Shown piece by piece: positions 7,541 to 34,987 of a stretch of 38,623 nt of DNA. The DNA is taken from assembly GCA_019118425.1 (NCBI GenBank), contig DWYZ01000152.1, forward strand, positions 1 to 38,623, read 5' to 3'. The number at the start of each line of letters is the position of its first letter. Position 1 is the first letter of the stretch. The stretch is from Candidatus Blautia faecavium (lineage in GTDB: Bacteria > Bacillota > Clostridia > Lachnospirales > Lachnospiraceae). The notes under the pieces are model-generated. The model was not told the DNA's origin and searched no databases. It saw nothing but the letters and a program-made list of their open reading frames with translations. Made by a program: the position numbers and the translations under genes.

Positions 7541-8188
7541 GTGGAGTCAAAAGAAATTTCAAAGGCGGTGATCAAGAGACTGCCACGTTATTACCGCTAT
7601 CTGGGCGAATTAATGGAGGAAAATGTAGAGCGGATCTCTTCCAATGATCTGAGCAAAAAAATGCATGTCACTGCTTCTCAGATCCGTCAGGACCTTAATA
7701 ACTTCGGCGGGTTCGGCCAGCAGGGCTATGGCTATAACGTACGTTATCTTTATACGGAAATCGGTAAGATCCTGGGACTGGATACGGTGCATCCCATGAT
7801 CATCCTGGGAGCGGGAAATTTAGGACAGGCCCTTGCCAATTACGTAGATTTTGAAAAAAGAGGATTTAAGCTGGTGGGGATCTTTGATGTAAACCCGGTG
7901 TTGGAAGGAATTGCAGTACGGGGAATAGAGATCCAGCTTTTAAGCGAGCTTCCTCTGTTTTTGAAGGAGAATCAGGTGGAGATCGCGATCTTGACCCTGC
8001 CTAAGAACAAAGCGAAGGAAATGGCTAATATTTTAGTGGAAAACGGCATCAAGGCGATCTGGAATTTTGCCCACATTGACCTTGACACTCCACAAGACGT
8101 GATCGTAGAAAACGTACATCTGTCAGAGAGCCTGATGACGCTGTCCTATAACCTGAGCCAATACCGCCAGGAGCACATCGAAAAATAA
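7541..8188 (+). CDS. rex: Redox-sensing transcriptional repressor Rex
   Basis: 215 residues, the usual length. The N-terminal winged helix (about 1-80) carries KAVIKRLPRYYRYL, SSNDLSKKMHVTASQIRQDL and GGFGQQGYGYNV, the DNA-recognition region of Rex. The C-terminal Rossmann domain has the NAD(H) motif ILGAGNLGQALANY and a following acidic IFDVNP. High NADH/NAD releases Rex from DNA and derepresses fermentation, hydrogenase and butyrate genes in Clostridia. The start is GTG at 7541 after AAGGAGGGG. The gene is transcribed alone from a consensus promoter and followed by two hairpins. The hydrogenase operon beginning at 15207 and the Stn operon are plausible targets. Confidence 0.97.
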   Translation: MESKEISKAVIKRLPRYYRYLGELMEENVERISSNDLSKKMHVTASQIRQDLNNFGGFGQQGYGYNVRYLYTEIGKILGLDTVHPMIILGAGNLGQALANYVDFEKRGFKLVGIFDVNPVLEGIAVRGIEIQLLSELPLFLKENQVEIAILTLPKNKAKEMANILVENGIKAIWNFAHIDLDTPQDVIVENVHLSESLMTLSYNLSQYRQEHIEK

Positions 8189-11022: not shown

Positions 11023-11124
11023 GACTATTAAGACGATAACCACGCATGTATACACAAGAAAAATATGGAGATACTAATTCTAGAATACGGCGGATGCCGG
11101 AGACAGAATCGGAGTGTGAATTGT

Positions 11125-11472
11125 GTGGTAATAAAAAGAGGGGATATATTTTATGCAGATTTAAGACCAGTGGTGGGAAGTGAACAGGGCGGTGTGCGGC
11201 CGGTCCTGATCATTCAGAATGATGTGGGAAACCGGCACAGTCCCACCGTTATCTGCGCTGCCATTACATCTAAAATGAACAAGGCAAAACTGCCGACACA
11301 TATTGAGATCGATGCTTCTGCTTATGGAATCGAGAAGGATTCCGTGATCCTTTTAGAGCAGCTGCGCACCATTGATAAAAGAAGACTGAAGGATAAGGTT
11401 TGCCACTTGGATCAGGTGATGCTGGACCGGGTGAACCATGCTCTTGAGATCAGTTTGGAACTGACGTTTTAA
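11125..11472 (+). CDS. mazF: MazF/PemK-type mRNA interferase (EndoA family), apparently without MazE
   Basis: 115 residues when read from GTG at 11125, which gives the usual family beginning [20 protein letters not shown]. Other hallmarks are [37 protein letters not shown] and a C-terminal LEISLEL. MazF toxins cleave single-stranded mRNA at short motifs. The track start at 11065 adds an unrelated N-terminus, whereas GGAG at 11111-11114 is 10 nt from the GTG. Only about 100 bp separates it from alr, too little for a normal MazE of about 80 residues. An antitoxin could be encoded elsewhere, or the protein may be tamed in another way. The catalytic Arg/Thr pattern looks intact. Confidence 0.92.
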
Positions 11473-11509: not shown

Positions 11510-11625
11510 AAGCCGGACCACAGCCCTTTTTGCGCTGAAAAAGATGGACACATGTCACACCGTAACCACGCACCCGCTGCGTGGTTACGGGCTAGTATGA
11601 ATCAGCAAAGGATGTGGTCCGGCTT
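11510..11625. repeat. Interrupted 13-bp inverted repeat around a REP-like palindrome
   Basis: Between convergent mazF and the PHP gene, AAGCCGGACCACA (11510-11522) is perfectly complementary to TGTGGTCCGGCTT (11613-11625). The enclosed sequence contains a T-rich stretch and the palindrome at 11546-11605. The outer repeat reads like terminator arms that have been forced apart by the inner element, which is an inference. It begins right at the PHP stop codon (11624-11626). Confidence 0.7.
11546..11605. repeat. Dispersed palindromic repeat, full copy 1
   Basis: The core is CGTAACCACGCA-CCCGC-TGCGTGGTTACG (11561-11589), a 12-bp perfect hairpin extendable to 13 bp. It is flanked by GGACACATGTCACAC on the left and GGCTAGTATGAATCA on the right. 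Related copies are at 23604-23665, 23143-23163 and 38534-38560. Confidence 0.8.
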
Positions 11626-12349
11626 ATTTCATCCCCCTGGCGCCCAGTGCCTTAAGGATATGAGGGATTTCCCGGGATTCTGACAGAATCTGATAAAAAG
11701 GTTCTTTTATATCCCAGAGATAATGGGCATCCGAACTGCAGAGGATCTGGCAGGAATGAAGATATGGGTTCGCTTTCTGGAGAGAATGCAGGTTCCTAAG
11801 GTCGTGGAGCTCTGCGCAGGTGAAGCTGCTCTTTGGAGGAATAAACCCCAGATTAGAGATCAGACTTGTAGAAGATTTATCCAGATGAGCCGGAAATGCC
11901 AGTCCATGATAGGAAGAGACAAGGGAATCCGTTTGTTCAAAAGAAATGTCTGTGGCATTGATCAGCAGATTTTCCACCCGCCCGGTCTCTTCGTCCTTTT
12001 CGTTTATGATCTGCTGTTTCCCAAAGATATGCTCTTTATTTTTTACAGGAAGCATATGTCCGTAAACATAAGCGTCAAAGGCCATGGCGTCCTCAAGAGA
12101 AGGAAACAGGCAGACCACATGGACCTCCTCGGCGGTACACAGCTCCATGCCCGGGATCACTGTGACTCCATATTCCTTTCCGTGATACATGGCTGCCGGA
12201 CAGTTTTTGCAGGAATTATGATCTGTCAGAGCGATCACGTCCAGCCCTTTTACGGCAGCCATTCCCACTATATTCCCGGGCGTCATGTCATCGTCTCCGC
12301 AGGGAGAGAGACAGGAATGGATATGAAGGTCATAGTACAAGGGGATCAT
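11624..12349 (-). CDS. PHP-domain metal-dependent phosphoesterase
   Basis: 241 residues with PHP motifs: YDLHIHSCLSPCGDDDMTP at the start (HxH), ALTDHNSCKN near 42, PGMELCTAEEVHVVCLF near 67, a central SYHGLAFPAHLDKS near 150 and a terminal SSDAHYL near 205. PHP proteins hydrolyse phosphoesters using a multi-metal centre, on substrates such as nucleotides, 3'-phosphates or histidinol phosphate. The true substrate is unknown. Its start codon overlaps the stop of the DRTGG gene upstream (ATGA), so it is the translationally coupled last gene of the leftward hydrogenase-linked operon. That link suggests a role in the same signalling system, perhaps removing a phosphate or nucleotide signal, which is speculative. 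Confidence 0.9.
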   Translation of the reverse strand: MIPLYYDLHIHSCLSPCGDDDMTPGNIVGMAAVKGLDVIALTDHNSCKNCPAAMYHGKEYGVTVIPGMELCTAEEVHVVCLFPSLEDAMAFDAYVYGHMLPVKNKEHIFGKQQIINEKDEETGRVENLLINATDISFEQTDSLVSSYHGLAFPAHLDKSSTSLISNLGFIPPKSSFTCAELHDLRNLHSLQKANPYLHSCQILCSSDAHYLWDIKEPFYQILSESREIPHILKALGARGMK

Positions 12350-12681
12350 TGTTCCGCCCTCAGCCTGTGGATAGCCAGAGCTGTGTCAAAAATGGGCAGA
12401 TCCGTCTCAAAGACCGTGATGCCTTCGTCTATGGCACACTTCTTATCACTTTCATTTAGATGGACTCCCTCTGCAAGGATCACACAGGCAGTGTCAGTAA
12501 GGGAAGCCACAGCAATGGTATTTTTATTGGCCATTACCGTTACCCAGGCGCAGCCGGAAGGAGCCTTGGACATGGCGATGCTCAGGAGGTCGCAGCAAAA
12601 TACGCCGGTTATGGTTTCTTCCATTTTTCCCTGGGCAGCAAGCCTGCATTCTTTTATCCGGGCAATCTCTTTTACAGTCAT
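12346..12681 (-). CDS. DRTGG-domain protein (first of two)
   Basis: 111 residues. The sequence VKEIARIKECRLAAQ, GVFCCDLLSIAMSKAP, CAWVTVMANKNTIAVASLTD, ACVILAEGVHLN, FETDLPIFDTALAI matches the DRTGG-type fold found in Pta-like proteins and in stand-alone proteins near Fe-hydrogenase genes. These domains are thought to be regulatory and have no proven activity. The ATG at 12681 lies 10 nt after AAAGGA; the GTG at 12690 used in the track is too close to that site. It lies 37 bp downstream of the hydrogenase-like gene and overlaps the PHP gene by 4 nt. It carries two adjacent cysteines (FCCD) whose role is unknown. Confidence 0.8.
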   Translation of the reverse strand: MTVKEIARIKECRLAAQGKMEETITGVFCCDLLSIAMSKAPSGCAWVTVMANKNTIAVASLTDTACVILAEGVHLNESDKKCAIDEGITVFETDLPIFDTALAIHRLRAEQ

Positions 12682-12718
12682 ATTAATCACATCCTTTCTG
12701 GCCGGCAGACAGCAAAGT

Positions 12719-14098
12719 TTAAATCTGCCGGTTTAAGTCTTTTAATTCATCCATTAATCTTTGGATATTTTCTTTTACTTCCGGAGGTGACGGAGCTTTA
12801 GATTCCTGCTGCTGGATGGTTCCGGCCAGGTTTTGTATCTCGTCTGACAGACGGTTTATGGAATCCCGGAATACATAAGTGCAGTCATTGATGCTGGCCT
12901 CTCCGCGGACAATATCCTCTGCAAGTGCCTGACAGGTCGGGGCTCCGCAGGAACCGCAGTCAAGACCGGGAAGCTGTTTGGTGAGGGACTCTACTGTTTT
13001 CATCATGTGCAGACTTTCTTTAAAAGTACTGCCTAAACGGAATACCGGTTCATATTCAATGCGGCCGTTCCATTTCAGATCCAGATCAGGATAAGATTCC
13101 AGGTGATTTTGGGCCACCGGAAGATAGCGGGTGATCTTTTTCGTCTTGCTCTCTGCCACATAAGGATTTTCTACAGTGAGGACGCCGCCTACACAGCCTC
13201 CGTTACAGGCGTTTAATTCTACGAATTTCAACCCATGTATTTTTTCGTCTTCTAATCCCTCCAGAACCCGCAGAACATTGACAATGCCGTCTGCGGCCAG
13301 ATAGCTGTCAGTGATGATGCCTGCCGCTTCTCCGCCGCGGTTGCTCCAGCCAATGCCGATCCGTCCGGATTTAGAAAGAGGTGGCGCGTCTACGGCATGT
13401 TTCATATGAGGAAGAAGGAGGGGATAGACCTCTTTTATAGCTACCACGTTGTCGATATCGCTTTTTTCGATTCCCAGAGGGGCCTTGGCATAGGAAACCT
13501 TGGAAGGACAGGGAGAAATAAAGATGATCCCGATCTCCGAGGGGGAAAGCCCTGTTTTTTTGACAGCATTTTTACGTGCGATTTCCGCCGCAATCTCCAC
13601 AGGGGGCTTCAGGGGAAGCAGCCTGGGAATCAGGGCCGGGAATTTTACCCGTACCAGCCGTACGATGGAAGGACATGCAGTGCTGATAAAGGGCGCTTCA
13701 TCCTGGTGTTCTTTTATGTAGGCGCGGGTGGCTTCCGATACCAGCTCAGCAGCGGCGCTAACCTCAAAGACATCGTCGAAGCCCAGCTTTAATAAGGCGT
13801 TCAGTACAATATCCGGACTGGACAGGTTATTATACTGGGCATACAGAGAGGGAGCAGGAAGAGCAACTGTATATTTAAAGTTGTTCAGCACATCCAAAGA
13901 GTCATATTCCGGTATTTTCGCGTGGTGCGGACAGGACTGGACGCATCTGCCGCAGTCAACGCAGAATTTATCTATAATGTGCGCTTTTCCGTTATGTACC
14001 CGGATAGCCTGGGTAGGACACTGCTTAATGCAGTTGTAACAGCCTCTGCAGGCATTTTCATTCAGGCGTACGGAGCGTATAAATTTGTACATATTCAT
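12719..14098 (-). CDS. HydS-like [FeFe]-hydrogenase-family Fe-S protein without a PAS domain (group D-like)
   Basis: 459 residues. Two [4Fe-4S] motifs (CRGCYNCIKQCP and CVDCGRCVQSCP, residues about 17-57) lead into an Fe-hydrogenase large-subunit domain. Its H-cluster loops are divergent: L1 reads STACPSIV, L2 reads ISPCPSKV, and L3 reads LNACNGGCVGGV where catalytic enzymes have MACxxGCxxGGGQP. After it comes a further Fe-S motif LDCGSCGAPTCQALAED (about 390-405), then a probable coiled coil. I infer an electron-transfer or sensory role rather than turnover. The ATG at 14098 follows AGGAGG by 8 nt, better than the track GTG. Its neighbours (ATPase, two DRTGG proteins, PHP) are signalling-type genes. 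Confidence 0.85.
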   Translation of the reverse strand: MNMYKFIRSVRLNENACRGCYNCIKQCPTQAIRVHNGKAHIIDKFCVDCGRCVQSCPHHAKIPEYDSLDVLNNFKYTVALPAPSLYAQYNNLSSPDIVLNALLKLGFDDVFEVSAAAELVSEATRAYIKEHQDEAPFISTACPSIVRLVRVKFPALIPRLLPLKPPVEIAAEIARKNAVKKTGLSPSEIGIIFISPCPSKVSYAKAPLGIEKSDIDNVVAIKEVYPLLLPHMKHAVDAPPLSKSGRIGIGWSNRGGEAAGIITDSYLAADGIVNVLRVLEGLEDEKIHGLKFVELNACNGGCVGGVLTVENPYVAESKTKKITRYLPVAQNHLESYPDLDLKWNGRIEYEPVFRLGSTFKESLHMMKTVESLTKQLPGLDCGSCGAPTCQALAEDIVRGEASINDCTYVFRDSINRLSDEIQNLAGTIQQQESKAPSPPEVKENIQRLMDELKDLNRQI

Positions 14099-14110
14099 GG
14101 CGTTCACCTC

Positions 14111-14533
14111 CTAGATATGGACATCCATGGTGACAGTGGTACCCTTTCCCAGTGTAGACTCGATTTCCATACGGTCGGAATATTTTTTCATGTTAGGCAG
14201 TCCCATACCGGCTCCGAATCCCAGAGAGCGGACGTTTTCCGGCGCGGTGGAGTAGCCTTCCTCCATTGCCTTGGAGATATCCGGGATTCCTGGTCCTTGG
14301 TCTTTCAGGACGATCTTAATATTATCGTCGCTGATCTCCACAGTGATGATGCCTCCATTGGCATGGATGACCATATTGATTTCCCCTTCATACATGGCAA
14401 TGGCCACCTTTCGGACAACCGTATTGCTGACTCCCATCATTTTCAATTTGTTTTTAATGTCGCTGCTGGCTTCCCCGGCTCTTGTGAAATCATCTCCGGG
14501 GATTTCATAGCGGAATGTGATGCTTTCGCTCAT
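14111..14533 (-). CDS. RsbW/RsbT-like GHKL ATPase (anti-sigma-type kinase)
   Basis: 140 residues forming one HATPase_c domain. The N box is VRKVAIAMYEGEINMVIHANGG, the G1 box is LKDQGPGIPD, and the G2 region is GFGAGMGLPNMKKYSD followed by GKGTTVTMDV. This is the arrangement of the small serine/threonine kinases RsbW, RsbT and SpoIIAB in partner-switching systems. GGAGG within the preceding gene's end is 7 nt from the ATG, and that gene's TAA directly abuts the ATG, so translation is coupled. Together with the SpoIIE-type phosphatase at 21946 it supplies both halves of a Ser/Thr phosphorylation switch. No STAS-domain partner is visible in the window; the DRTGG proteins are candidates for that role, as an inference. 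Confidence 0.88.
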   Translation of the reverse strand: MSESITFRYEIPGDDFTRAGEASSDIKNKLKMMGVSNTVVRKVAIAMYEGEINMVIHANGGIITVEISDDNIKIVLKDQGPGIPDISKAMEEGYSTAPENVRSLGFGAGMGLPNMKKYSDRMEIESTLGKGTTVTMDVHI

Positions 14534-14878
14534 TTACGCACCTCCCCGAAGACCGTTTAAGTACAGGATGCCGCAAGTGGTAAACATATGGTGGGTGGTT
14601 GCAAGGATCACGATATTTTTTTCCCTGGCCAGACGCAGGATAGGCTCGTCCGGACTTTTTCCCCGGACAAAGATGATACAGACGATATCCAGCATTTCGG
14701 CAGTCCTGACTACCTGGGGATTGCATAGGCCAGTTACTAATATAGACTGTTCTTTGGCGTAGGCAAGAACATCGCTCATCATATCTGAGGAAAAAACGAA
14801 TTCTGCATCCTGATCCAGCAGTTCCTCGCCGAATAGCACATGGGCATCCAGCAGTTCTTGAATAGTTCTGATCGTCAT
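14534..14878 (-). CDS. DRTGG-domain protein (second, operon leader)
   Basis: 114 residues, first gene of the leftward operon. It reads IRTIQELLDAHVLFGEELL, FVFSSDMMSDVLAYAKEQS, LVTGLCNPQVVRTAEML, IIFVRGKSPDEPILRLA and ILATTHHMFTTCGILYLNGL. This is the DRTGG layout and resembles the other copy at 12346-12681, though the two are clearly diverged. The ATG at 14878 follows AAGGAGG with a 5-nt spacer; the track extends 25 residues upstream into the leader and promoter region. Such proteins are recurrent partners of [FeFe]-hydrogenase genes in Clostridia and Thermotogae, with unknown function. It is driven by the promoter at 14925-14953. Confidence 0.8.
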   Translation of the reverse strand: MTIRTIQELLDAHVLFGEELLDQDAEFVFSSDMMSDVLAYAKEQSILVTGLCNPQVVRTAEMLDIVCIIFVRGKSPDEPILRLAREKNIVILATTHHMFTTCGILYLNGLRGGA

Positions 14879-14924
14879 AAAGACCTCCTTTTGGTTCAGA
14901 TGTCTGTGGCAAAGATTTTTATTA

Positions 14925-14953
14925 AGTATAACATTCATACTATTTAAAAACAA
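14925..14953 (-). promoter_or_regulatory. Promoter of the leftward signalling operon
   Basis: On the minus strand TTGTTT (14953-14948) and TATACT (14930-14925) are spaced 17 bp. Just upstream is the AT-rich 16-bp palindrome ATTATTTTCAAATAAT (14958-14973), which could be an operator. Confidence 0.65.
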
Positions 14954-15087: not shown

Positions 15088-15138
15088 TAGAAAATAGACT
15101 TGTTCTATGTTATGATAAATTTGTGACAGGAGTGTCAA
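15088..15138 (+). promoter_or_regulatory. Hydrogenase operon promoter with a candidate operator
   Basis: TAGAAA (15088-15093), 17 bp and TATGAT (15111-15116) form a weak promoter. At the expected start site lies TTGTGACAGGAGTGTCAA (15121-15138), containing the perfect TGACA-N4-TGTCA palindrome (15124-15137). Its left half equals the Rex half-site TTGTGA and its right half is imperfect. A repressor site here, Rex or another, is plausible. Confidence 0.55.
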
Positions 15139-15206: not shown

Positions 15207-15701
15207 ATGCAGCCAAAGAAGCAGACCGTTCCTTTTAAAGGAACAAAAGAGCAGGAAGACGCCCTGAAACAGGCGATCAAGGAGCTCAGAGAGGAAAAAG
15301 GAGCATTGATGCCTGTTCTCCAAAAGGCACAGGAAATCTACGGATATCTGCCCCTGGAGGTACAAAAGATCATTGCCAATGAGATGGAAATTCCTCTGGA
15401 GAGAGTATATGGTGTTTCTACTTTTTATTCACAGTTTACCCTGAATCCCAAGGGAAGAAACCGGATATCCGTCTGTCTTGGAACTGCGTGCTATGTTAAG
15501 GGTTCCGGAGATATTTACAATGCTTTGATGGAAAAGCTTGGGATCGTAGGTGGAGAATGTACGCCGGACGGAAGATTTTCCCTGGATGCCTGCCGCTGCG
15601 TAGGCGCCTGCGGACTGGCGCCCGTCATGATGGTAAACGATGATGTATATGGCCGTCTGACCGTGGATGATATAGACGGCATATTGGAAAAATATCAGTA
15701 A
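15207..15701 (+). CDS. hydC: Bifurcating [FeFe]-hydrogenase NuoE-like subunit
   Basis: 164 residues of the thioredoxin-like [2Fe-2S] NuoE/HndA family. The helical N-terminal region contains ALMPVLQKAQEIYGYLPLE and GVSTFYSQF. The cluster ligands are in VCLGTACYVKGS and DACRCVGACGLAPVMM. It passes electrons within the HydABCD complex that couples NADH and reduced ferredoxin oxidation to H2 formation. AGAGGAGG precedes the ATG. It is the first gene of the rightward operon, whose order (hydC, ATPase, hydD, hydB, hydA) matches that recalled for Acetobacterium woodii. The paralogue at 32694 belongs to a different complex. Confidence 0.93.
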   Translation: MQPKKQTVPFKGTKEQEDALKQAIKELREEKGALMPVLQKAQEIYGYLPLEVQKIIANEMEIPLERVYGVSTFYSQFTLNPKGRNRISVCLGTACYVKGSGDIYNALMEKLGIVGGECTPDGRFSLDACRCVGACGLAPVMMVNDDVYGRLTVDDIDGILEKYQ

Positions 15702-15705
15702 GCTT

Positions 15706-16263
15706 ATGATGCCGGAAATTGCGCTGAATATATTGGATGTGGCGGAAAACTCCATCCGGGCCAAGGCGTCTCTTGTAGAGATCAGTGTGTCTGTCCGTCC
15801 GAAAGAGGACAGAATGGAAGTGATCATTCGGGATAATGGCTGCGGAATGGACACGGAACAGGTAAAAAAGGTACAGGATCCTTTTTTTACCACAAGAAAG
15901 ACAAGGAAAGTAGGTCTGGGAGTACCTTTTTTTAAACAGGCTGCAGAGTGCACAGGAGGAACCTTTTCCATCACCTCAGAGAAGGGAAAGGGCACCCAGG
16001 TAAACGCTTCTTTTGTCTTGTCCAGTATAGACCGCATGCCCTTAGGCGACATCAGCGGGACCATACATACACTTGTGGTGTTTCATCCGGATAGGGATTT
16101 TATTTACCGTTATATCTATGATGATAAAAGTTTTGTTCTGGATACCAGGGAAATGAGAGAAATCTTAGGAGATATTTCTTTTCGGGAACCAGAAGTGTCG
16201 TCCTTTTTGTCGGAGTATCTAACGGAAAATAAGCAGACAGTGGACGGCGGCGTGGAAATTTAA
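15706..16263 (+). CDS. GHKL (histidine-kinase-like) ATPase inside the hydrogenase operon
   Basis: 185 residues. The N box (IALNILDVAENSIRAKASLV), the G1 box (IRDNGCGMD), the PFFTTRKTRKVGLGVPFF segment and SEKGKGTQV show a complete HATPase_c domain of residues 1-105. No dimerisation or phospho-acceptor His domain precedes it. The remaining 80 residues (DRMPLGDISGTIHTLVVFH and on) are unassigned. A similar gene sits at the same position in the A. woodii hydrogenase operon, where I recall it was called hydE and was not part of the purified enzyme. That name is shared with a maturase, so I leave the symbol blank. It starts 4 bp after hydC and probably acts in regulation or assembly. Confidence 0.85.
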   Translation: MMPEIALNILDVAENSIRAKASLVEISVSVRPKEDRMEVIIRDNGCGMDTEQVKKVQDPFFTTRKTRKVGLGVPFFKQAAECTGGTFSITSEKGKGTQVNASFVLSSIDRMPLGDISGTIHTLVVFHPDRDFIYRYIYDDKSFVLDTREMREILGDISFREPEVSSFLSEYLTENKQTVDGGVEI

Positions 16264-16284
16264 CCTTAGAAATGGAGGAAGTTT

Positions 16285-16665
16285 ATGAAGACTCTGGAAG
16301 AATTAAAAGCGATCCGAGAAAAAATGGAAGGCAGGATCCATATGCGTTCGGAAGACGAAAAACAGATCCGCGTAGTTGTAGGAATGGCTACCTGCGGAAT
16401 CGCCAGCGGGGCAAGGCCGGTTCTGACGACTCTCTCAGACGCGGTACAGGAATTGGGTCTGGATAATGTAATGGTGACACAGACAGGGTGCATCGGGCTC
16501 TGCCAGTATGAACCCATCGTAGAGGTGATACAGCCTGGAAAAGAAAAAGTAACTTACGTAAAGATGAATCCCGAGAAAGCCATGGAGGTAGTGAGACTGC
16601 ACCTTGTGGACGGACAGGTGGTTACCAAATATACCCTTGGAGCTGAAAAAATAGGAGAAAAATAA
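16285..16665 (+). CDS. hydD: Bifurcating hydrogenase small [2Fe-2S] subunit
   Basis: 126 residues. After a 30-residue helical start, the core VVVGMATCGIASGARPVL and VTQTGCIGLCQYEPIVEV carries the four Cys of a thioredoxin-like [2Fe-2S] domain, homologous to the N-terminal domain of HydB/NuoF. GGAGGA 7 nt upstream supports the ATG. It lies between the ATPase gene and hydB, as in the A. woodii operon, where HydD is a component of the four-subunit enzyme. The Stn-type NuoF homologue at 33218 carries a similar domain fused at its N-terminus. Confidence 0.88.
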   Translation: MKTLEELKAIREKMEGRIHMRSEDEKQIRVVVGMATCGIASGARPVLTTLSDAVQELGLDNVMVTQTGCIGLCQYEPIVEVIQPGKEKVTYVKMNPEKAMEVVRLHLVDGQVVTKYTLGAEKIGEK

Positions 16666-16684
16666 CGAAGAGGAGGCAAAAGAT

Positions 16685-18472
16685 ATGTATCGTTCACATG
16701 TTTTGGTGTGCGGGGGAACCGGATGTACTTCCTCGGGCAGCAAAAAAATCATAGAAAGATTGCAGCAGGAAATTAACGCGGCAGGTCTTGCCATGGAAGT
16801 TGGGGTTGTACAGACCGGATGTTTTGGCCTTTGTGCGCTTGGCCCTATTATGATCGTATATCCGGAAGGTAGTTTTTATTCCATGGTAAAAGAAGAAGAT
16901 ATTCCGGAGATCGTACAGGAACATCTGTTAAAGGGAAGAGTGGTAAAACGTCTTCTCTATGATGAGACGACGAAACAGGAGGAAGTTCTTCCCCTTCAGG
17001 AAACGAAATTCTATAAAAAGCAGAAAAGAGTGGCGCTTAGAAACTGCGGTGTTATAAATCCGGAAAATATTGAAGAATACATAGGTACAAGAGGATACGA
17101 GGCCTTAGGAAAAGTTCTTACCCAAATGACGCCGGATGAAGTCATACAGACTATGCTGGACAGCGGCTTAAGAGGAAGAGGAGGAGCCGGTTTCCCTACA
17201 GGTCTGAAATGGAAATTCGCAAAGCAGAATGACGCGGATCAGAAATATGTGTGCTGCAATGCAGACGAGGGCGATCCTGGGGCATTTATGGACCGTTCCA
17301 TCCTGGAGGGCGATCCTCATGTGGTTTTAGAGGCAATGGCTATTGCCGGATACGCCATCGGCGCTTCCCAGGGATATATTTATGTACGTGCGGAATATCC
17401 CATTGCGGTAAAGCGGCTTCAGATCGCAATTGACCAGGCAAGAGAGTACGGTCTGCTGGGAAAAGATATTTTCAGCAGCGGCTTTGATTTTGATATTGAG
17501 CTCCGTCTTGGCGCGGGGGCTTTCGTATGCGGTGAGGAGACGGCTCTTATGACTTCCATCGAGGGCCGCAGAGGAGAACCCCGTCCCCGTCCGCCGTTTC
17601 CGGCATTAAAAGGTCTGTTCCAGAAACCGACAATTCTGAACAATGTGGAGACCTATGCCAATGTGCCAAGGATCATCTTAAACGGACCGGAATGGTTCGC
17701 CTCCATGGGAACAGAAAAATCCAAAGGAACGAAGGTATTTGCCCTTGGCGGAAAGATTAACAACACAGGTCTTGTGGAAATTCCTATGGGAACAACCCTC
17801 CGTGAGATCATCGAGGAGATCGGAGGCGGCATTCCTAACGGAAAGAAATTTAAGGCGGCTCAGACGGGAGGTCCGTCCGGCGGATGTATCCCAGCGGAGA
17901 AGATGGATGTTCCCATTGACTACGATAACCTGATCGCGATCGGCTCCATGATGGGATCCGGCGGACTGATCGTTATGGACGAGGATACCTGTATGGTGGA
18001 TATCGCCAAGTTTTTCCTTGAATTTACTGTAGATGAGTCCTGCGGAAAATGTGCTCCCTGCCGTATCGGTACCAGGCGTATGCTGGAAATCCTGGAAAAA
18101 ATCACGAAAGGCCAGGGAACCATGGAAGATCTGGATAAACTGGAAGAGCTCTGCGAGCATTTGAAAGCCAATTCTCTTTGTGCTCTGGGTCAGACAGCGC
18201 CGAATCCTGTAATTTCTACTTTGCGGTATTTCCGGGACGAGTACATTGCTCATATCGTAGATAAAAAATGTCCTGCAGGCGTCTGTAAGGATCTGCTCCA
18301 GTACAGGATCGATGCGGACAAGTGTAAAGGCTGTACCTTGTGTGCAAGAGTATGTCCAAACGGAGCGATCATCGGTGAGAAGAAACAGCCTCATATGATC
18401 AATCAGGATAAGTGTGTGAAATGTGGCGCTTGTATGGAAAAATGCCGCTTCGGCGCGATTTATAAAGAGTAA
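16685..18472 (+). CDS. hydB: Bifurcating hydrogenase NuoF-like subunit, NADH and FMN site
   Basis: 595 residues. Domain order: N-terminal thioredoxin-like [2Fe-2S] domain (VLVCGGTGCTSSGS, VVQTGCFGLCALGPI; residues 1-95), the FMN/NADH Rossmann domain (GLRGRGGAGFPTGLKW near 160, NADEGDPGAFMDRS near 190, GAGAFVCGEETALM near 275), the NuoF [4Fe-4S] site (SCGKCAPCRIGTRR near 450) and two C-terminal ferredoxin-like [4Fe-4S] motifs (CKGCTLCARVCP, CVKCGACMEKCR). HydB holds the FMN where bifurcation is proposed. AGAGGAGG precedes the ATG, and its stop codon abuts the RBS of hydA. Confidence 0.95.
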   Translation: MYRSHVLVCGGTGCTSSGSKKIIERLQQEINAAGLAMEVGVVQTGCFGLCALGPIMIVYPEGSFYSMVKEEDIPEIVQEHLLKGRVVKRLLYDETTKQEEVLPLQETKFYKKQKRVALRNCGVINPENIEEYIGTRGYEALGKVLTQMTPDEVIQTMLDSGLRGRGGAGFPTGLKWKFAKQNDADQKYVCCNADEGDPGAFMDRSILEGDPHVVLEAMAIAGYAIGASQGYIYVRAEYPIAVKRLQIAIDQAREYGLLGKDIFSSGFDFDIELRLGAGAFVCGEETALMTSIEGRRGEPRPRPPFPALKGLFQKPTILNNVETYANVPRIILNGPEWFASMGTEKSKGTKVFALGGKINNTGLVEIPMGTTLREIIEEIGGGIPNGKKFKAAQTGGPSGGCIPAEKMDVPIDYDNLIAIGSMMGSGGLIVMDEDTCMVDIAKFFLEFTVDESCGKCAPCRIGTRRMLEILEKITKGQGTMEDLDKLEELCEHLKANSLCALGQTAPNPVISTLRYFRDEYIAHIVDKKCPAGVCKDLLQYRIDADKCKGCTLCARVCPNGAIIGEKKQPHMINQDKCVKCGACMEKCRFGAIYKE

Positions 18473-18486
18473 TGGAGGAAGCAAAC

Positions 18487-20229
18487 ATGGAAAACGTGAA
18501 TCTTAAGATAAATGGTATCAGTGTATCCGCACCTGCCGACTCTACCATTCTTGAGGCGGCGCATATTGCAGGGATAAAGATCCCTACCCTTTGTTATTTA
18601 AAGGAGATCAATGAGATCGGTGCCTGCCGCATGTGTGTGGTAGAGGTCAAGGGTGCGAGGAATCTTGTGGCAGCCTGCGTGTATCCGGTAAGTGAAGGAA
18701 TGGAAGTGCAGACGAATACGCCCCGGCTGTTAAAATCCAGGAAGCGTACGCTTCAGCTTCTTTTATCCAACCATGATAAAAACTGTCTTTCCTGTGTACG
18801 GAGCGGAAACTGCGAACTGCAGCAGCTTTGTAGAGAGCTGGGCGTGGATGATGAAAATTACTTTGCAGGAGAAAAGAATGAATATGAGCTGGATACTTCC
18901 GCTGCACATATGGTCCGTGACAATAACAAATGTATTCTCTGCAGGCGCTGCAGCGCAGTGTGTGAAAAAGTGCAGGCAGTAGGGATCATCGGTCCCAATA
19001 AAAGAGGCTTTGCTTCTTATATCGGAACAGCCTTTGACATCCCTCTCGGTGAGACAAGCTGCGTATCCTGCGGACAGTGTATTGCGGCCTGTCCTACAGG
19101 TGCCCTTTATGAAAAGGATAACATCGGGGAGGTGCTGGATGCCATCGCGGATCCTTCCAAACATGTGGTGGTACAGACTGCGCCTTCTGTCCGGGCAGCT
19201 CTTGGAGAAGAATTTGGCTATCCCATGGGAACGGATGTGGAAGGAAAAATGGCGGCGGCTCTTAGAAGGATCGGATTTGACAAGGTATTTGACACAGATT
19301 TCGGAGCGGATCTTACCATTATGGAGGAAGCCAATGAATTTCTTGACAGAGTGAAAAACGGCGGCGTTCTTCCAATGATCACCTCCTGCTCTCCGGGATG
19401 GGTGAAATACTGCGAGCATTATTATCCGGATCAGCTTTCCCATCTTTCCAGCTGTAAATCTCCGCAGCAGATGTTCGGGGCAGTCACAAAGACTTATTAC
19501 GCAGAAAAAATGGGACTGGATCCAAAGAATATCGTCTGCGTCAGCGTGATGCCCTGTACAGCTAAGAAATTCGAGATCGGACGTCCGGATCAGGATGCGG
19601 CCGGGGTGCCGGATGTGGATATTTCCATTACCACCAGAGAACTTGCCCGCATGATCAAACGTCTGGGTATTGATTTTACCTCTCTTGGGGAGGAAGGCTT
19701 TGACGATCCTCTCGGAGAATCTACCGGTGCAGGAGTGATCTTCGGAGCCACCGGCGGTGTTATGGAAGCGGCTCTCCGTACAGCAGTAGAAACGCTTACC
19801 GGAGAAGAGCTTTCTAACGTAGAATTTAATGAGGTACGCGGAACGGAAGGCATCAAGGAAGCGGTATACCATGTGGCCGGAATGGACATAAAGGTTGCGG
19901 TAGCTTCCGGAGTGACCAATGCAAAGATCATTATGGATAAGATCCGGGCAGGAGAAGCGGACTATCATTTCGTTGAGATCATGTGCTGCCCGGGCGGATG
20001 CGTAAACGGAGGCGGACAGCCTCAGGTGCCGGGCTATATCCGGAACTTTAGCGACGTACGTGCAGTCCGCGCGAAAGCTCTGTATAAGAACGATGAGAAG
20101 AAGGCGATCCGTAAATCTCATGAGAACCCGTCTATCAAGAAATTGTATGAAGAATTTTTAGGACAGCCGGGAAGTGAAAAAGCACATCATATCCTTCATA
20201 CATCCTATGTGAAGAGGAGTATTAATTAA
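18487..20229 (+). CDS. hydA: Bifurcating [FeFe]-hydrogenase catalytic subunit
   Basis: 580 residues. Domains: plant-type [2Fe-2S] (1-75; CYLKEINEIGACRMCVVEV), the His-ligated [4Fe-4S] segment (SNHDKNCLSCVRSGNC), two [4Fe-4S] motifs (CILCRRCSAVCE, CVSCGQCIAACP) and the H-cluster domain. L1 reads TSCSPGW, L2 reads MPCTAKKFE and L3 reads EIMCCPGGCVNGGGQP. The Ser in L1 is a variant I recall from multimeric bifurcating enzymes. The C-terminal SSU-type tail (ALYKNDEKKAIRKSHENP) is present. It makes or uses H2 in the cytoplasm. The ATG at 18487 has GGAGGAA 6 nt upstream; the track start at 18472 overlaps the hydB stop. Maturation genes hydEFG are not in the window. Confidence 0.96.
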   Translation: MENVNLKINGISVSAPADSTILEAAHIAGIKIPTLCYLKEINEIGACRMCVVEVKGARNLVAACVYPVSEGMEVQTNTPRLLKSRKRTLQLLLSNHDKNCLSCVRSGNCELQQLCRELGVDDENYFAGEKNEYELDTSAAHMVRDNNKCILCRRCSAVCEKVQAVGIIGPNKRGFASYIGTAFDIPLGETSCVSCGQCIAACPTGALYEKDNIGEVLDAIADPSKHVVVQTAPSVRAALGEEFGYPMGTDVEGKMAAALRRIGFDKVFDTDFGADLTIMEEANEFLDRVKNGGVLPMITSCSPGWVKYCEHYYPDQLSHLSSCKSPQQMFGAVTKTYYAEKMGLDPKNIVCVSVMPCTAKKFEIGRPDQDAAGVPDVDISITTRELARMIKRLGIDFTSLGEEGFDDPLGESTGAGVIFGATGGVMEAALRTAVETLTGEELSNVEFNEVRGTEGIKEAVYHVAGMDIKVAVASGVTNAKIIMDKIRAGEADYHFVEIMCCPGGCVNGGGQPQVPGYIRNFSDVRAVRAKALYKNDEKKAIRKSHENPSIKKLYEEFLGQPGSEKAHHILHTSYVKRSIN

Positions 20230-20231
20230 AA

Positions 20232-21944
20232 TTGAAGGTAATAGATTTTCGTGATGCAAGCTGCAGGCATTGCTATAAGTGCGTGAGAAACTGCAGCGTA
20301 AAAGCCATTTCCGTAAAAAATGCCCAGGCACACATTATTACGGAAAATTGTATCCACTGCGGTCACTGCCTGGAAGTCTGTCCCCAAAACGCCAAGACTT
20401 TTTCCAGTGATCTTGACCGGATAAAAAGCTGGCTCAGGCAGGGGACAAAAATCGTGGTTTCCATTGCCCCTTCTTATTTGAGCGTACTTTCCTATGATAA
20501 ACCGGGGCAGGTAGTGGACGCTCTTTTACGCCTGGGATTTTATGAGGTGCGTGAGACAGCGGAAGGCGCTGCCTATGTGACAAGAGAATACCAGAAGCTG
20601 ATCAAAGAGGGCGGCATGAAAAACATCATTACCACCTGCTGTCCCAGCGTGAACGACCTGGTGGAAAAATATTATCCCAGCCTTGCCTCACAGATGGCTC
20701 CGGTGGTGTCGCCTATGATCGCCCATGGGCGCCTTATTAAAAAGATATATAAGGATACGGTAAAGGTTGTGTTTTTAGGCCCCTGTATAGCGAAAAAGGC
20801 GGAAGCAGAGGGGGACGAAAGAGTCGCAGGAGCGATCGATGCCATCCTTACCTTTGATGAATTGACAGAATGGCTGAAGGCAGAAGGAATCCGCATCATT
20901 GACTGTGAGGAAAAAGCCCTCGGCAATCCCAATCCGGAGGTGAACCGCCTGTATCCTGTAAGCGGCGGTATCGTAAAATCCGTTTTGGCGGAGGAAGAGG
21001 CGGAGAACTACAAAAAGGTATATGTGGATGGCCTCAATGCCTGCATGGAACTATTTGAAAGTATGGAAAGGGACGAGATAAGCGGCTGTTTTTTAGAGGT
21101 AAATATTTGTGAGGGAGGCTGCATTAAAGGGCCTGCCTCACATAATTGGAACCGTTCCTTTGTAAAGGGAAAGCTGAAGGTGGAAAGCTATGTACCCAGG
21201 GAGACTGCGCCTAGGCAGGAAACACCGGATGTGGAAATGGAGAAACATTTCTGCGACCGGAGGATCAAGGAGCCTGTGCCTTCTGAGCGGGAGCTTTCAG
21301 GCATTTTGCATGCTATGGGAAAATATACAAAAGAAGATGAGCTGAACTGCGGGGCCTGCGGCTATCCTTCCTGCCGGGCAAAGGCAGAGGCTGTTTATAG
21401 GAATAAGGCGGAGATCAGCATGTGCCTGCCTTATGCCCTGGCTCAGGCGGAATCTATGTCCAATGTGATCCTGGATGCTACGCCTAATCTGAATTTCGTG
21501 GTAGACCGGGAACTTAGGATACGGGAATGCAATAAGAGGGCCCAGGAATTTCTGAACATTTCCAGAGAAGAGGCATTGGAAAGCTATATATTTGAATATA
21601 TCAATGAAGAGGACGTGGAAGAGGTATTTAAAGAAAAGGCTCCTGTGATACGTAAAAAGCTGGATTTAAAGGAGCTTGGCATCATCGCTTTAGAGACCGT
21701 AGTGTATATTGAGAAAAAAGACTGTGTCCTTGTGATCCTTCAGGACGTGACGCGGGAGGAGAAGGCAAGGGAACAGAGGTTTAAGCAGAAACTGGAAACC
21801 ATGGAGATCGCCCAGCAGGTGATCAATAAGCAGATGATGGTGGCCCAGGAGATCGCAGGGCTTTTAGGAGAGACTACAGCGGAAACAAAGGTAACCCTTA
21901 CAAAGCTTCGGGATTCTGTCCTTTCAGAGGAAGAGGGGGATTAG
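20232..21944 (+). CDS. hydS: Putative sensory [FeFe]-hydrogenase with PAS domain
   Basis: 570 residues. Two [4Fe-4S] motifs (CRHCYKCVRNCS, CIHCGHCLEVCP), a hydrogenase H-domain (L1 TTCCPSVND, L2 GPCIAKKAE, L3 NICEGGCIKGP, which lacks the GGGQP of catalytic enzymes), a further Fe-S motif (LNCGACGYPSCRAKAE near 372), a PAS domain (about 405-495) and a C-terminal helix suited to dimerisation. This is the layout of group C/HydS proteins, proposed H2 sensors. The start is a TTG 2 bp after hydA, behind GAGGAG, so it is in the same operon. The SpoIIE phosphatase gene follows after 1 bp, so H2 or redox binding is likely to control that enzyme (inference). Confidence 0.9.
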   Translation: MKVIDFRDASCRHCYKCVRNCSVKAISVKNAQAHIITENCIHCGHCLEVCPQNAKTFSSDLDRIKSWLRQGTKIVVSIAPSYLSVLSYDKPGQVVDALLRLGFYEVRETAEGAAYVTREYQKLIKEGGMKNIITTCCPSVNDLVEKYYPSLASQMAPVVSPMIAHGRLIKKIYKDTVKVVFLGPCIAKKAEAEGDERVAGAIDAILTFDELTEWLKAEGIRIIDCEEKALGNPNPEVNRLYPVSGGIVKSVLAEEEAENYKKVYVDGLNACMELFESMERDEISGCFLEVNICEGGCIKGPASHNWNRSFVKGKLKVESYVPRETAPRQETPDVEMEKHFCDRRIKEPVPSERELSGILHAMGKYTKEDELNCGACGYPSCRAKAEAVYRNKAEISMCLPYALAQAESMSNVILDATPNLNFVVDRELRIRECNKRAQEFLNISREEALESYIFEYINEEDVEEVFKEKAPVIRKKLDLKELGIIALETVVYIEKKDCVLVILQDVTREEKAREQRFKQKLETMEIAQQVINKQMMVAQEIAGLLGETTAETKVTLTKLRDSVLSEEEGD

Positions 21945-21945
21945 G

Positions 21946-23118
21946 ATGAATGTCTGTATCGATGCGGCATGGAAAAGCCTGAACAAATTTGAAGAGGAGC
22001 TTTGCGGGGATAAGGTGGAAGTACATAAAACAGAGACGTCAGATATCGTGATCCTGGCGGACGGCATGGGAAGCGGGGTAAAGGCAAATATACTGGCGAC
22101 CCTTACCTCTAAAATCCTGGGGACTATGTTTTTAGAAGGCGCTTCCATTGAGGACTGTGTGGAGACCATAGCTAAGACGCTGCCTGTCTGTCAGGAAAGA
22201 AAAACCGCATACGCTACCTTCAGTATCCTGCAGATTTTTCATGACGGAAACGCTTACCTTGCGGAGTTTGATAATCCAGTGTGCGTGTTTGTGCGGGATG
22301 GAAAGATCGTGGATTATCCCTATACAGAGCGGATCATAGAGGAGAAGAAAATCCGGGAATACCGTTTTCGCGTACAAAAGAACGACTGTTTTGTGCTTAT
22401 GAGCGATGGAGTGATCTATGCAGGGGCTGGGGAAATCCTGAATTTCGGGTGGACCTGGGAAAATATGGCAGAGTATACGCTGAAGTGTACCAGGCAGACA
22501 CTTTCTGCCGCCCGTTTGGCCAGTCTTTTAAGCGATGCCTGCAATGATCTGTATGAGCAGAAGCCGGGAGATGACACGACTGTGGCTGTGGTGCGGGTAC
22601 GTGAGCGCCAGGTAGTGAATATCTTTACCGGTCCTCCTGAGAAAAAAGAAGACGATGAGCGGCTTATGTATGATTTTATGCATTCTCCGGGAAGGAAGAT
22701 CGTCTGCGGCGGGACTACGGCGAATATCGCGGCGCGTGTTTTAGGAAAAGAGATCGTTACTTCTGTAAATTATGCCAATCCGGATGTTCCCCCCACGGCG
22801 TCCCTTGAGGGAATCGACCTGGTAACGGAGGGGGTTCTGACTCTTGGAAAAACCTTAAAGCTTTTAAAGCGTTATGCGGAAGATGATTTTGACGTGGATT
22901 TCTTTGATGAGCTGGATGCGGATAATGGAGCGTCCCGTCTGGCAAAGATCATAATAGAAGAATGTACGGACCTTTGTCTTTTTGTGGGAAGAGCGGTGAA
23001 TACCGCCCACAAGGATTCCAGCCTGCCCTTTGATCTGAGCATGCGGATGAATCTGGTGGAGCAGTTAAAAGAGACGGCAGAGAAGCTGGACCGGCAGGTG
23101 ACAGTGTCTTATTACTAG
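21946..23118 (+). CDS. SpoIIE/PP2C-type Ser/Thr phosphatase
   Basis: 390 residues. The N-terminal PP2C-like domain (about 1-225) has the metal-binding IVILADGMGSGVKANILA, TAYATFSILQI, FVLMSDGVIYAGAG and the terminal PGDDTTVAVVRV. These match the phosphatase domain of SpoIIE and RsbU. The C-terminal 160 residues (KIVCGGTTANIAARVLGKEI, then EGIDLVTEGVLTLGKTLKLL) form a conserved-looking extra domain that I cannot name. It lies 1 bp after the PAS-containing sensory hydrogenase and ends the operon. PP2C phosphatases of this class dephosphorylate anti-sigma antagonists. Here the substrate may be a DRTGG or ATPase-linked protein, which is an inference. Confidence 0.9.
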   Translation: MNVCIDAAWKSLNKFEEELCGDKVEVHKTETSDIVILADGMGSGVKANILATLTSKILGTMFLEGASIEDCVETIAKTLPVCQERKTAYATFSILQIFHDGNAYLAEFDNPVCVFVRDGKIVDYPYTERIIEEKKIREYRFRVQKNDCFVLMSDGVIYAGAGEILNFGWTWENMAEYTLKCTRQTLSAARLASLLSDACNDLYEQKPGDDTTVAVVRVRERQVVNIFTGPPEKKEDDERLMYDFMHSPGRKIVCGGTTANIAARVLGKEIVTSVNYANPDVPPTASLEGIDLVTEGVLTLGKTLKLLKRYAEDDFDVDFFDELDADNGASRLAKIIIEECTDLCLFVGRAVNTAHKDSSLPFDLSMRMNLVEQLKETAEKLDRQVTVSYY

Positions 23119-32693: not shown

Positions 32694-33206
32694 ATGAGCA
32701 ATACGTGTGGATGTCAAAACGGCGGAAATGCAGATTTCGCTGAATTGGCTCCTGTACTGGAGAAGTATGCAAAAGTGCCAGGAAGCCTGATCACCATTCT
32801 TCAGCAGACACAGGATATTTACGGTTATCTTTCTCTGGATGCCATTAACTATATCGCAGAGAGAACCGGTATCATGCCTGCAAAAATTTACGGCGTGGCT
32901 ACTTTCTATGCTCAGTTCCGCTTACAGCCTGTAGGCAAATACCTTATCATGCTTTGCAAGGGTACTGCCTGTCATGTAAACGGTTCTGACATGATAGAGG
33001 AAGCTGTCTGTGAACACCTGGGCATCAAGGACGGCGAGACAACAGAGGATGGATTGTTTACCCTGAATAATGTTGCCTGTCTTGGCTGCTGTTCTCTGGC
33101 TCCCGTAATGATGGTGAAGACTGTGGACGGCGAGGAAACATTCGGTAACCTGACGAAATCTTCCGTTCAGAAGATTCTTGATGATTACAAAGCACAGAAT
33201 GCATAG
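32694..33206 (+). CDS. stnC: Stn-type transhydrogenase NuoE-like subunit
   Basis: 170 residues of the NuoE/HndA [2Fe-2S] family: LITILQQTQDIYGYLSLDA, GVATFYAQFRLQPVGKY, ligands in CKGTACHVNGSD and VACLGCCSLAPVMM. The N-terminus has an additional CGCQNGG cysteine pair. AGGAGGG precedes the ATG. It leads a three-gene operon (32694-38488) whose third gene identifies it as the StnABC-type bifurcating transhydrogenase described from Sporomusa ovata, not a hydrogenase: there is no H-cluster subunit. It is paralogous to hydC at 15207. Confidence 0.85.
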   Translation: MSNTCGCQNGGNADFAELAPVLEKYAKVPGSLITILQQTQDIYGYLSLDAINYIAERTGIMPAKIYGVATFYAQFRLQPVGKYLIMLCKGTACHVNGSDMIEEAVCEHLGIKDGETTEDGLFTLNNVACLGCCSLAPVMMVKTVDGEETFGNLTKSSVQKILDDYKAQNA

Positions 33207-33217
33207 GAGGTAGAAGT

Positions 33218-34972
33218 ATGAAGGTTGTTGTAGGACAGGGCAGCTGCGGCATTGCCACCGGTGCAAAGAAAACCTCTAACGAATTTGAAAGAATCGTAGC
33301 GGAGAAAAATCTGTCAAACGTTGTCGTTGACAAGACCGGATGTATCGGTACCTGTTACCTGGAGCCCATCGTAGATGTCTATAATGACGAAGGCGCTCTG
33401 GAAGCAAGATATGTAAAATGTACCACAGATAAAGTGGAAGAAATTGTAGATGAACATCTTATAGGCGGAAAGCCTGTTGAAAAATATGTGATCCCTAAAG
33501 AGGACGAAGCCTTTTTGTCCCAGCAGCAGAGGATCGTGCTGCGCAACTGCGGACAGATCAATCCGGAAAAGATTGAAGAGTACATTGCGGTCGGCGGTTA
33601 TGAGGCTGCAAAAAAAGTTGTTACTTCCATGACCCCGGATGAAGTGATTGAAGAAATCAAGGTTTCTGGACTCAGAGGCCGCGGCGGCGCGGGATTCCCC
33701 ACTTGGTTTAAATGGAACGCCATTAAATCAAACAGCGGTCCTAAGAAATACATGGTCTGTAATGCGGACGAGGGCGACCCGGGCGCGTTCATGGACCGTT
33801 CCGTATTGGAAGGCGATCCCCATTCCGTTCTGGAAGGAATGATCATCGGCGGTTTCGCAGCAGGAGCTACAGAAGGCATCATCTACTGCCGTGCTGAGTA
33901 TCCGCTGGCTATTGCCAGACTGGAAATTGCTATGGAGCAGGCAAGAGAAAAAGGATTTTTAGGAAAGAATCTTTTTGGCACAGATTTTAATTTTGATATC
34001 CGCATTAAAGCGGGCGCCGGAGCATTTGTCTGCGGTGAGGAAACTGCTCTTATCGCATCCCTGGAAGGTGAGCGAGGCATGCCTCGTCTGAAACCTCCAT
34101 TCCCGGCAGCAAAGGGTTATTGGAAGCTTCCTACCAATATTAATAACGTAGAAACTTACGCAAACGTTGCTTGGATCATGTTAAACGGCGGACAGGCATT
34201 CGCTGCCAGAGGATCTGAAAAGTCAAACGGTTCCAAAGTATTTGCCCTTGCTGGAAAGATCAAGAAGGGCGGTCTTGTGGAAGTTCCTATGGGAATGACT
34301 CTGAAAGAAGTTATTTATAACATCGGCGGAGGCATTAAAAACGATAAGAAATTTAAGGCAGTTCAGATGGGCGGTCCTTCCGGCGGATGTATCCCGGCAG
34401 AACTTATCGATACCCCGGTTACATATGAAGATATTAATAAAACAGGTGCTATCGTTGGTTCCGGCGGTATGATCGTTATGGACGAAGATACCTGTATGGT
34501 AGATATGGCGCGTTTCTTCCTGGATTTCACCAAGAAGGAATCCTGCGGTAAATGTAACTACTGCCGTATCGGTACAAAGAGAATGCTTGAAATCCTGGAA
34601 AGGATCACAAAAGGAGAAGGAAAAGACGGAGACATTGAGCTTTTGGAAGAGCTGGCAGGAAAGATTAAAGACGGCGCTATGTGCGGTCTTGGCCAGACAG
34701 CTCCGAACCCTGTCCTTACCACTTTAAAATACTTCCGTAACGAGTATGAAGACCATATTTATAACCATAAATGTACAGCGAAATCCTGTAAAGCTCTTAT
34801 CCATTATGAGATCACTGACAACTGTAAAGGATGCGGCGCATGTGCAAGGAAATGTCCGGTGGGAGCGATCAGCGGTGAGAAGAAACAGATCCATAAGATC
34901 GATCCGGCTGTATGTATCAAGTGCGGCAAGTGTGAAGAGTCCTGTAAGTTTGACGCAGTAAAGAGAGTGTAA
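33218..34972 (+). CDS. stnB: Stn-type transhydrogenase NuoF-like subunit, NADH and FMN site
   Basis: 584 residues. Domains: N-terminal thioredoxin-like [2Fe-2S] (VVGQGSCGIATGAKK, DKTGCIGTCYLEPI), the NADH/FMN domain (GLRGRGGAGFPTWFKW near 150, NADEGDPGAFMDRS, GAGAFVCGEETALI near 265), the [4Fe-4S] site SCGKCNYCRIGTKRM near 440 and two C-terminal [4Fe-4S] motifs (CKGCGACARKCP, CIKCGKCEESCK). It is strikingly similar in layout to hydB of the hydrogenase locus and would oxidise or reduce NADH while splitting electrons. TAGGAGG is 6 nt before the ATG, and it starts 11 bp after stnC. Confidence 0.9.
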   Translation: MKVVVGQGSCGIATGAKKTSNEFERIVAEKNLSNVVVDKTGCIGTCYLEPIVDVYNDEGALEARYVKCTTDKVEEIVDEHLIGGKPVEKYVIPKEDEAFLSQQQRIVLRNCGQINPEKIEEYIAVGGYEAAKKVVTSMTPDEVIEEIKVSGLRGRGGAGFPTWFKWNAIKSNSGPKKYMVCNADEGDPGAFMDRSVLEGDPHSVLEGMIIGGFAAGATEGIIYCRAEYPLAIARLEIAMEQAREKGFLGKNLFGTDFNFDIRIKAGAGAFVCGEETALIASLEGERGMPRLKPPFPAAKGYWKLPTNINNVETYANVAWIMLNGGQAFAARGSEKSNGSKVFALAGKIKKGGLVEVPMGMTLKEVIYNIGGGIKNDKKFKAVQMGGPSGGCIPAELIDTPVTYEDINKTGAIVGSGGMIVMDEDTCMVDMARFFLDFTKKESCGKCNYCRIGTKRMLEILERITKGEGKDGDIELLEELAGKIKDGAMCGLGQTAPNPVLTTLKYFRNEYEDHIYNHKCTAKSCKALIHYEITDNCKGCGACARKCPVGAISGEKKQIHKIDPAVCIKCGKCEESCKFDAVKRV

Positions 34973-34987
34973 TAGGAGGTGCAGACT

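Follow-up and report, generated by a model that had tools for sequence, protein, structure and literature searches.

The window under study is a stretch of 38,623 nucleotides from Candidatus Blautia faecavium, and it carries on its minus strand a gene, here called HydD, for an [FeFe]-hydrogenase-like protein whose active-site loops differ from those of the catalytic enzymes and in which an earlier note on this DNA had seen no PAS output domain. The question raised by the locus is what kind of hydrogenase HydD is, and which proteins could carry the output of an enzyme of this type. The features on which the argument rests are as follows.

11624-12349, minus strand: PHP-domain phosphoesterase (Pfam PHP, 8.2e-9), overlapping the end of DRTGG2
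12346-12690, minus strand: DRTGG2, divergent paralogue of DRTGG1 (Pfam DRTGG, 6.6e-4, below the cut-off)
12719-14107, minus strand: HydD, group D (M2e) [FeFe]-hydrogenase, TamHydS-like (Pfam, H-domain tree, residue table, AlphaFold2/Foldseek)
12881-12958, minus strand: C-terminal [4Fe-4S] site of HydD, Cx2Cx4Cx16C, with Cys384, Cys387, Cys392 and Cys409 (Pfam, alignment, codon coordinates)
13193-13207, minus strand: L3 of HydD, CNGGC, with ligands Cys301 and Cys305 and without the GGGQP tail (alignment, codon coordinates)
13217-13339, minus strand: proton-path residues Arg257 (TamHydS S249), Glu260 (E252), Asp273 (D265) and Glu297 (E289) (alignment; path as in PMC10407848)
13499-13516, minus strand: L2 of HydD, SPCPSK, with Ser198 (CpI Met353 position), ligand Cys200 and Lys203 (K358) (alignment, codon coordinates)
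13667-13687, minus strand: L1 of HydD, STACPSI, with Ala144 (CpI Cys299 position) and Cys145, ligand of [4Fe-4S]H (alignment, codon coordinates)
14111-14533, minus strand: GHKL ATPase of the SpoIIAB/RsbW type and putative Ser/Thr kinase, directly upstream of HydD (Pfam HATPase_c, 2e-12)
14534-14953, minus strand: DRTGG1, single-domain DRTGG protein (Pfam DRTGG, 2.5e-11; co-occurrence with HydD)
15207-20229, plus strand: bifurcating HydABC operon of the A. woodii type, divergent from the cassette (Pfam, comparison with A. woodii)
15207-15701, plus strand: NuoE-like gene of the HydABC operon
15706-16263, plus strand: HATPase gene of the HydABC operon
16285-16665, plus strand: 2Fe-2S gene of the HydABC operon
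16685-18472, plus strand: HydB
18472-20229, plus strand: HydA, L1 TSCSPGW
20232-21944, plus strand: group C sensor HydS with PAS domain, L1 TTCCPS (Pfam, H-domain tree)
21946-23118, plus strand: SpoIIE-type phosphatase beside the group C HydS (Pfam)

The open reading frame of HydD encodes 462 residues from a GTG start and 459 from the ATG at 14098, and the latter start, which the earlier note had also adopted, is favoured because AGGAGG lies 8 bases upstream of it. Pfam scanning of the protein returned Fe_hyd_lg_C (3.4e-30), the FeS domain PF04060 (6.5e-15) and Fer4, and no PAS domain. Its three accessory [4Fe-4S] motifs are the N-terminal CRGCYNCIKQCP and CVDCGRCVQSCP and the C-terminal Cx2Cx4Cx16C; the three motifs, the absent PAS domain and the loop readings STACPSI, SPCPSK and an L3 without GGGQP had all been read off beforehand and were borne out by Pfam and alignment. 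The AlphaFold2 model (mean pLDDT 93.2) ends in two helices, 410-435 and 442-461, and was matched by Foldseek to CbA5H, DdH and CpI with E values of about 1e-19 to 1e-16. The closest proteins, one from Blautia schinkii and one from a Eubacteriales MAG, are 80-81% identical to HydD.

A scan of the contigs of close relatives gave three loci only, one of them unrelated, and six-frame genome searches were therefore used, from which a set of 95 group D-like proteins at about 100 loci was obtained. A sample of 245 genomes from the class contained 117 with HydD. In the H-domain tree, HydD and 35 other group D sequences, among them the match to TamHydS, form one clade with support of 100/100 (100% of bootstraps) distinct from the group A, B and C sequences; some long branches meet in this tree, and how A, B and C are related to one another is less certain than the group D clade. 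Constraining HydD with catalytic group A was rejected (p-AU 0.017). The TamHydS match, at locus L152, agrees with TamHydS at 24 of 24 residues numbered in PMC10407848, PMC11803613 and PMC13104023, and on the strength of this agreement the L152 protein is TamHydS or a near-identical orthologue. HydD is 48% identical to it over 432 aligned residues and shares with it the domains, the Ala in L1, the Ser at the M353 position, the Glu252/Glu289/Asp265 path and the C-terminal Cx2Cx4Cx16C; it differs in having Asn299 for Leu291 (M497 position) and Arg257 for Ser249, and its nearest named relative is that of Blautia schinkii. The features of group D, namely two N-terminal [4Fe-4S] motifs together with the C-terminal Cx2Cx4Cx16C, no PAS domain, no Cys299 and a replaced Met353, are all found in HydD, and by tree and residues it is to be classed as a canonical group D (M2e, TamHydS-type) [FeFe]-hydrogenase, as the earlier note had supposed.

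TamHydS is the group D (M2e) enzyme of Thermoanaerobacter mathranii (PMC8163306, PMC10407848, PMC11803613, PMC13104023), a slow yet active hydrogenase for which a sensory role has been proposed (PMC8163306, PMC10407848), and which interconverts H+ and H2 reversibly (PMC8163306) with a specific activity of around 10^-1 umol H2 per mg per min (PMC10407848). It has a raised affinity for H2 and undergoes an H2-induced change of secondary structure (PMC8163306, PMC13104023); the conformational change is triggered by H2 and by photoreduction, and H2 does not reduce its C-terminal cluster (PMC13104023), an observation that speaks against simple redox relaying by way of that cluster. The suggestion of a slow or signalling enzyme made earlier for HydD fits this picture. 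The label of a poorly studied type given with it needs qualification: spectroscopy and mutagenesis of group D, including Ala137, run from 2019 to 2026, and the label holds for the physiological role; physiological or genetic evidence of sensing by any group D enzyme was found nowhere in the literature examined.

The loops of HydD read ISTACPSI (L1), FISPCPSK (L2) and NACNGGCVGGVL / KFVELNACNGGCVGGVLTVE (L3, CNGGCVGGVL), and the group A motifs TSC[C/S]P, MPCxxK and GGGQP are not found in it (STACPS, SPCPSK and CNGGCVGGVL stand in their place). The H-cluster ligands Cys145, Cys200, Cys301 and Cys305 are invariant in 95/95 group D-like proteins. Ala144, the equivalent of TamHydS Ala137, is Ala in 78 of the 95 relatives, so that STACPSI as a divergent one-off was rejected and the L1 Ala is taken as the family norm; Ser198 stands at the Met353 position, where 94/95 carry Ser or Thr, and Asn299 at the Met497 position. 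The sequences of groups B and C in the comparison likewise have no GGGQP tail. The proton path Glu252/Glu289/Asp265 described for group D, in which Ser/Thr at position 249 is "moderately conserved" (PMC10407848), is kept as Glu260/Glu297/Asp273, with Arg257 (CGC) at the position of Ser249. Arg occurs there in 2/95 relatives and Ser or Thr in 69/95, and the Arg is absent from the two closest relatives of HydD; roughly one in four of the clear members of group D has neither Ser nor Thr at this position, and Ser/Thr there is thus not group D-defining. By this comparison Ala in L1 and the absence of GGGQP are ordinary group D traits and Arg257 is the one odd residue of HydD, which may alter its turnover. 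Genes for the maturases HydG and HydF, both scoring above curated cut-offs, lie in other parts of the genome, and every known ligand and maturation gene looked for in connection with the diiron cofactor is present.

HydD on its own would be one more TamHydS-type enzyme, and it is the gene cassette around it that is the interesting part. The order is DRTGG1, SpoIIAB-like ATPase, HydD, DRTGG2 and PHP, all on the strand of HydD, and is complete in 77/97 HydD loci; eight of the 20 loci without the full order lie at contig ends and most of the others miss only the PHP gene beside DRTGG2. In the 245-genome sample, DRTGG1 is present in 115 and PHP in 113 of the 117 HydD-positive genomes, and presence or absence agrees in 241 genomes for HydD with DRTGG1 and in 240 for HydD with PHP, counts for which co-occurrence p-values overstate independence since related genomes share history. 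HydB lies inside the retrieved stretch in 61/97 HydD loci. At the TamHydS-like L152 locus the same five-gene cassette is followed by NuoE-HATPase-2Fe2S-HydB-HydA, the cassette being upstream of HydABC there, whereas in the window it is divergent from it. Group D HydD is thus a member of a fixed cassette, usually beside a bifurcating HydABC, and not a lone enzyme.

Two arrangements depart from this order. At locus L125 HydD stands apart, and a HydD-less DRTGG1-ATPase-DRTGG2-PHP set lies on another contig of the same genome (L156, G269:C1:297000-312000), which makes this genome a natural test of the dependence of the cassette on HydD; in another genome (L155, G254:C81) a pair of DRTGG1 and ATPase was seen, and no HydD was found in that genome. 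An apparent HydD-DRTGG fusion in a further genome (G246) was dismissed as a read-through artefact, the genes being separate.

Part of this context is already known. The TamHydS gene adjoins a HATPase gene and has a bifurcating hydrogenase downstream of it (PMC8163306, PMC13104023), and in PMC3561251, citing Calusinska 2010, sensory [FeFe]-hydrogenases including M2e are placed near kinases and bifurcating hydrogenases, with M2e genes adjoining the latter and a kinase between. The fixed five-gene cassette is new here, no description of it having been found in the literature searched, the coverage of which is incomplete; a search for DRTGG linked with hydrogenase gave a single, unrelated paper, and no paper on "PHP domain" with hydrogenase was found among the matches listed. 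The signal output of TamHydS was posed as a question, with the HATPase and an "AraC" neighbour named (PMC8163306). The near-absolute gene linkage names four candidate partners for the output of PAS-less group D, and in this way the conserved cassette turns the question of the TamHydS papers into one of specific partners. At the TamHydS-like locus a HATPase gene lies on one side of the hydrogenase gene and DRTGG2 on the other, and a Pfam scan of ORFs around it picked out no AraC-type domain. The "AraC family regulator" described beside TamHydS is therefore probably an annotation of DRTGG2.

As regards the partner proteins, the cassette ATPase resembles the SpoIIAB/RsbW anti-sigma factor kinases in fold and in the aligned N-box Glu and Asn; its N-box residues Glu49 and Asn53 and its G1 and G2 boxes are invariant among cassette ATPases, and its profile matched only SpoIIAB (anti-sigma F factor) in the PDB, at E of about 6e-12. 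It differs from these kinases in occurring together with a hydrogenase and DRTGG proteins, and SpoIIAB, which ranks first for it in NCBIfam (5.6e-18), scores 65.2 bits, below the curated cut-off of 135. Among the genes of the window that were scanned, none for a sigma or STAS partner was found. The two DRTGG proteins are paralogues of each other by hhalign (99.3%), and both carry an invariant Ser in a D-L/M-L/M-S motif (DRTGG1 Ser60, DRTGG2 Ser37). The conserved start of DRTGG1 is probably the ATG at 14878, from a conserved Met26, and the AlphaFold2 model of DRTGG2 (pLDDT 96.4) has the DRTGG protein AF1212 as its best Foldseek match (2ioj, TM 0.79). The NCBIfam relatives of the PHP protein are a nucleoside bisphosphatase and RNase RNM, and its metal-ligand residues D7, H9, H11, D43, H44, E69 and H155 are invariant, with D207 and H209 near-invariant. 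It is from these sequence facts that we infer the biochemical roles of the ATPase, the DRTGG proteins and the PHP enzyme.

On the other side of the divergent promoter region, HydA carries TSCSPGW, with Ser at the position of the CpI ligand Cys300 as in the solved A. woodii HydA1 (7q4v). This is the norm in the HydABC-type HydA examined here, and the motif was rejected as an anomaly, since A. woodii HydA1 and most of these proteins share it. The coexistence of three L1 variants in one locus was confirmed, STACPSI in HydD, TTCCPS in the protein at 20232 and TSCSPGW in HydA at 18472. The group C (M2f) PAS sensors of the TmHydS type, including the protein at 20232, have the FeS layout of HydD, also without GGGQP, and adjoin bifurcating HydABC as HydD does; they differ in having a PAS domain and in forming a clade of their own (96/89), and the protein at 20232 differs further in its adjoining SpoIIE phosphatase and in L2, where it reads GPC against SPC in HydD. 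A group C and a group D sensor thus flank one bifurcating hydrogenase in the window, the group C gene and its SpoIIE phosphatase gene lying on the HydABC operon itself. Orthologues of the group C HydS adjoin HydA also in B. schinkii and in the genome of locus L007, and locus L139 is another with both group C and group D sensors. A gene for a Rex-type redox repressor lies at 7541-8188 on the plus strand. In the divergent promoter region, TTGTGACAGGAGTGTCAA at 15121-15138 is a weak Rex-like site, agreeing at 10/12 positions with a Rex consensus; it is partly kept at L007 and not at L008.

The reading which we prefer, and which appears likely, is that HydD is a group D enzyme in a conserved cassette that gives slow H2/redox input to an ATPase/PHP/DRTGG switch tuning HydABC. 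HydD would bind the diiron cofactor and turn over H2 slowly, and instead of carrying metabolic flux it would report H2 pressure or electron load by the redox state of its clusters and by its conformation. Its C-terminal FeS and helical region could pass the change to the adjoining ATPase, which together with the PHP enzyme would determine whether the DRTGG proteins are phosphorylated or have nucleotide bound, and the state of the DRTGG proteins would tune the neighbouring bifurcating HydABC. We infer both the sensing by HydD and every step after the H-cluster. A more specific version, a five-protein H2-signalling module in which HydD controls a SpoIIAB-type kinase, DRTGG1 Ser60 and DRTGG2 Ser37 are the phospho-acceptors and PHP is the opposing phosphatase, is rather unlikely; if true, it would be a previously unnamed circuit resembling a partner switch, in which the receptor is a hydrogenase and neither a PAS nor a STAS domain takes part.

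Three other explanations bear on the enzyme itself. HydD might sense ferredoxin or the cell redox state by its [4Fe-4S] clusters, with the H-cluster only an equilibrating site and H2 not the physiological signal, an explanation consistent with the invariant Cys of the two ferredoxin-type clusters in group D, with the triggering of the TamHydS change by both H2 and photoreduction (PMC13104023) and with the Rex gene and weak Rex-like site nearby. Redox and H2 sensing are hard to tell apart by sequence. The conservation of the diiron-site residues and of the proton path typical of group D implies that H2 chemistry has been under selection, and we regard pure redox sensing as unlikely. That HydD is instead a slow but metabolic hydrogenase, for minor H2 evolution or uptake, and not a sensor would agree with the reversible catalysis of TamHydS (PMC8163306) and with the retention in HydD of all H-cluster ligands and of two F-clusters for electron input; the low activity of TamHydS (PMC10407848), the presence in the genome of four further hydrogenases, of groups A and B, and the resemblance of the cassette partners to signalling proteins speak against it, and it seems quite improbable.

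Loss of diiron cofactor binding, with HydD a degenerate or structural subunit, of HydABC for example, would account for the Asn at the Met497 position, the Ser at the Met353 position, an L1 without the proton-relay Cys, an L3 without GGGQP and the unusual Arg257 (2/95). TamHydS is active despite equivalent replacements in L1 and L2, the four cubane ligands are invariant throughout the 95 proteins, and 41 columns have stayed invariant despite long divergence, a fact that speaks against decay; this explanation we consider very improbable, and a slow H2/redox input to the cassette stays the preferred reading of HydD.

Two further observations concern the flanks of the locus. At 32694-38488 on the plus strand a second NuoE/NuoF pair is followed by a formate-dehydrogenase-like molybdopterin and pyridine-nucleotide oxidoreductase of 1169 residues, and a gene for a MazF/PemK-type toxin (11065-11472, plus strand) lies downstream of an alanine racemase gene and converges on the cassette at its PHP end.
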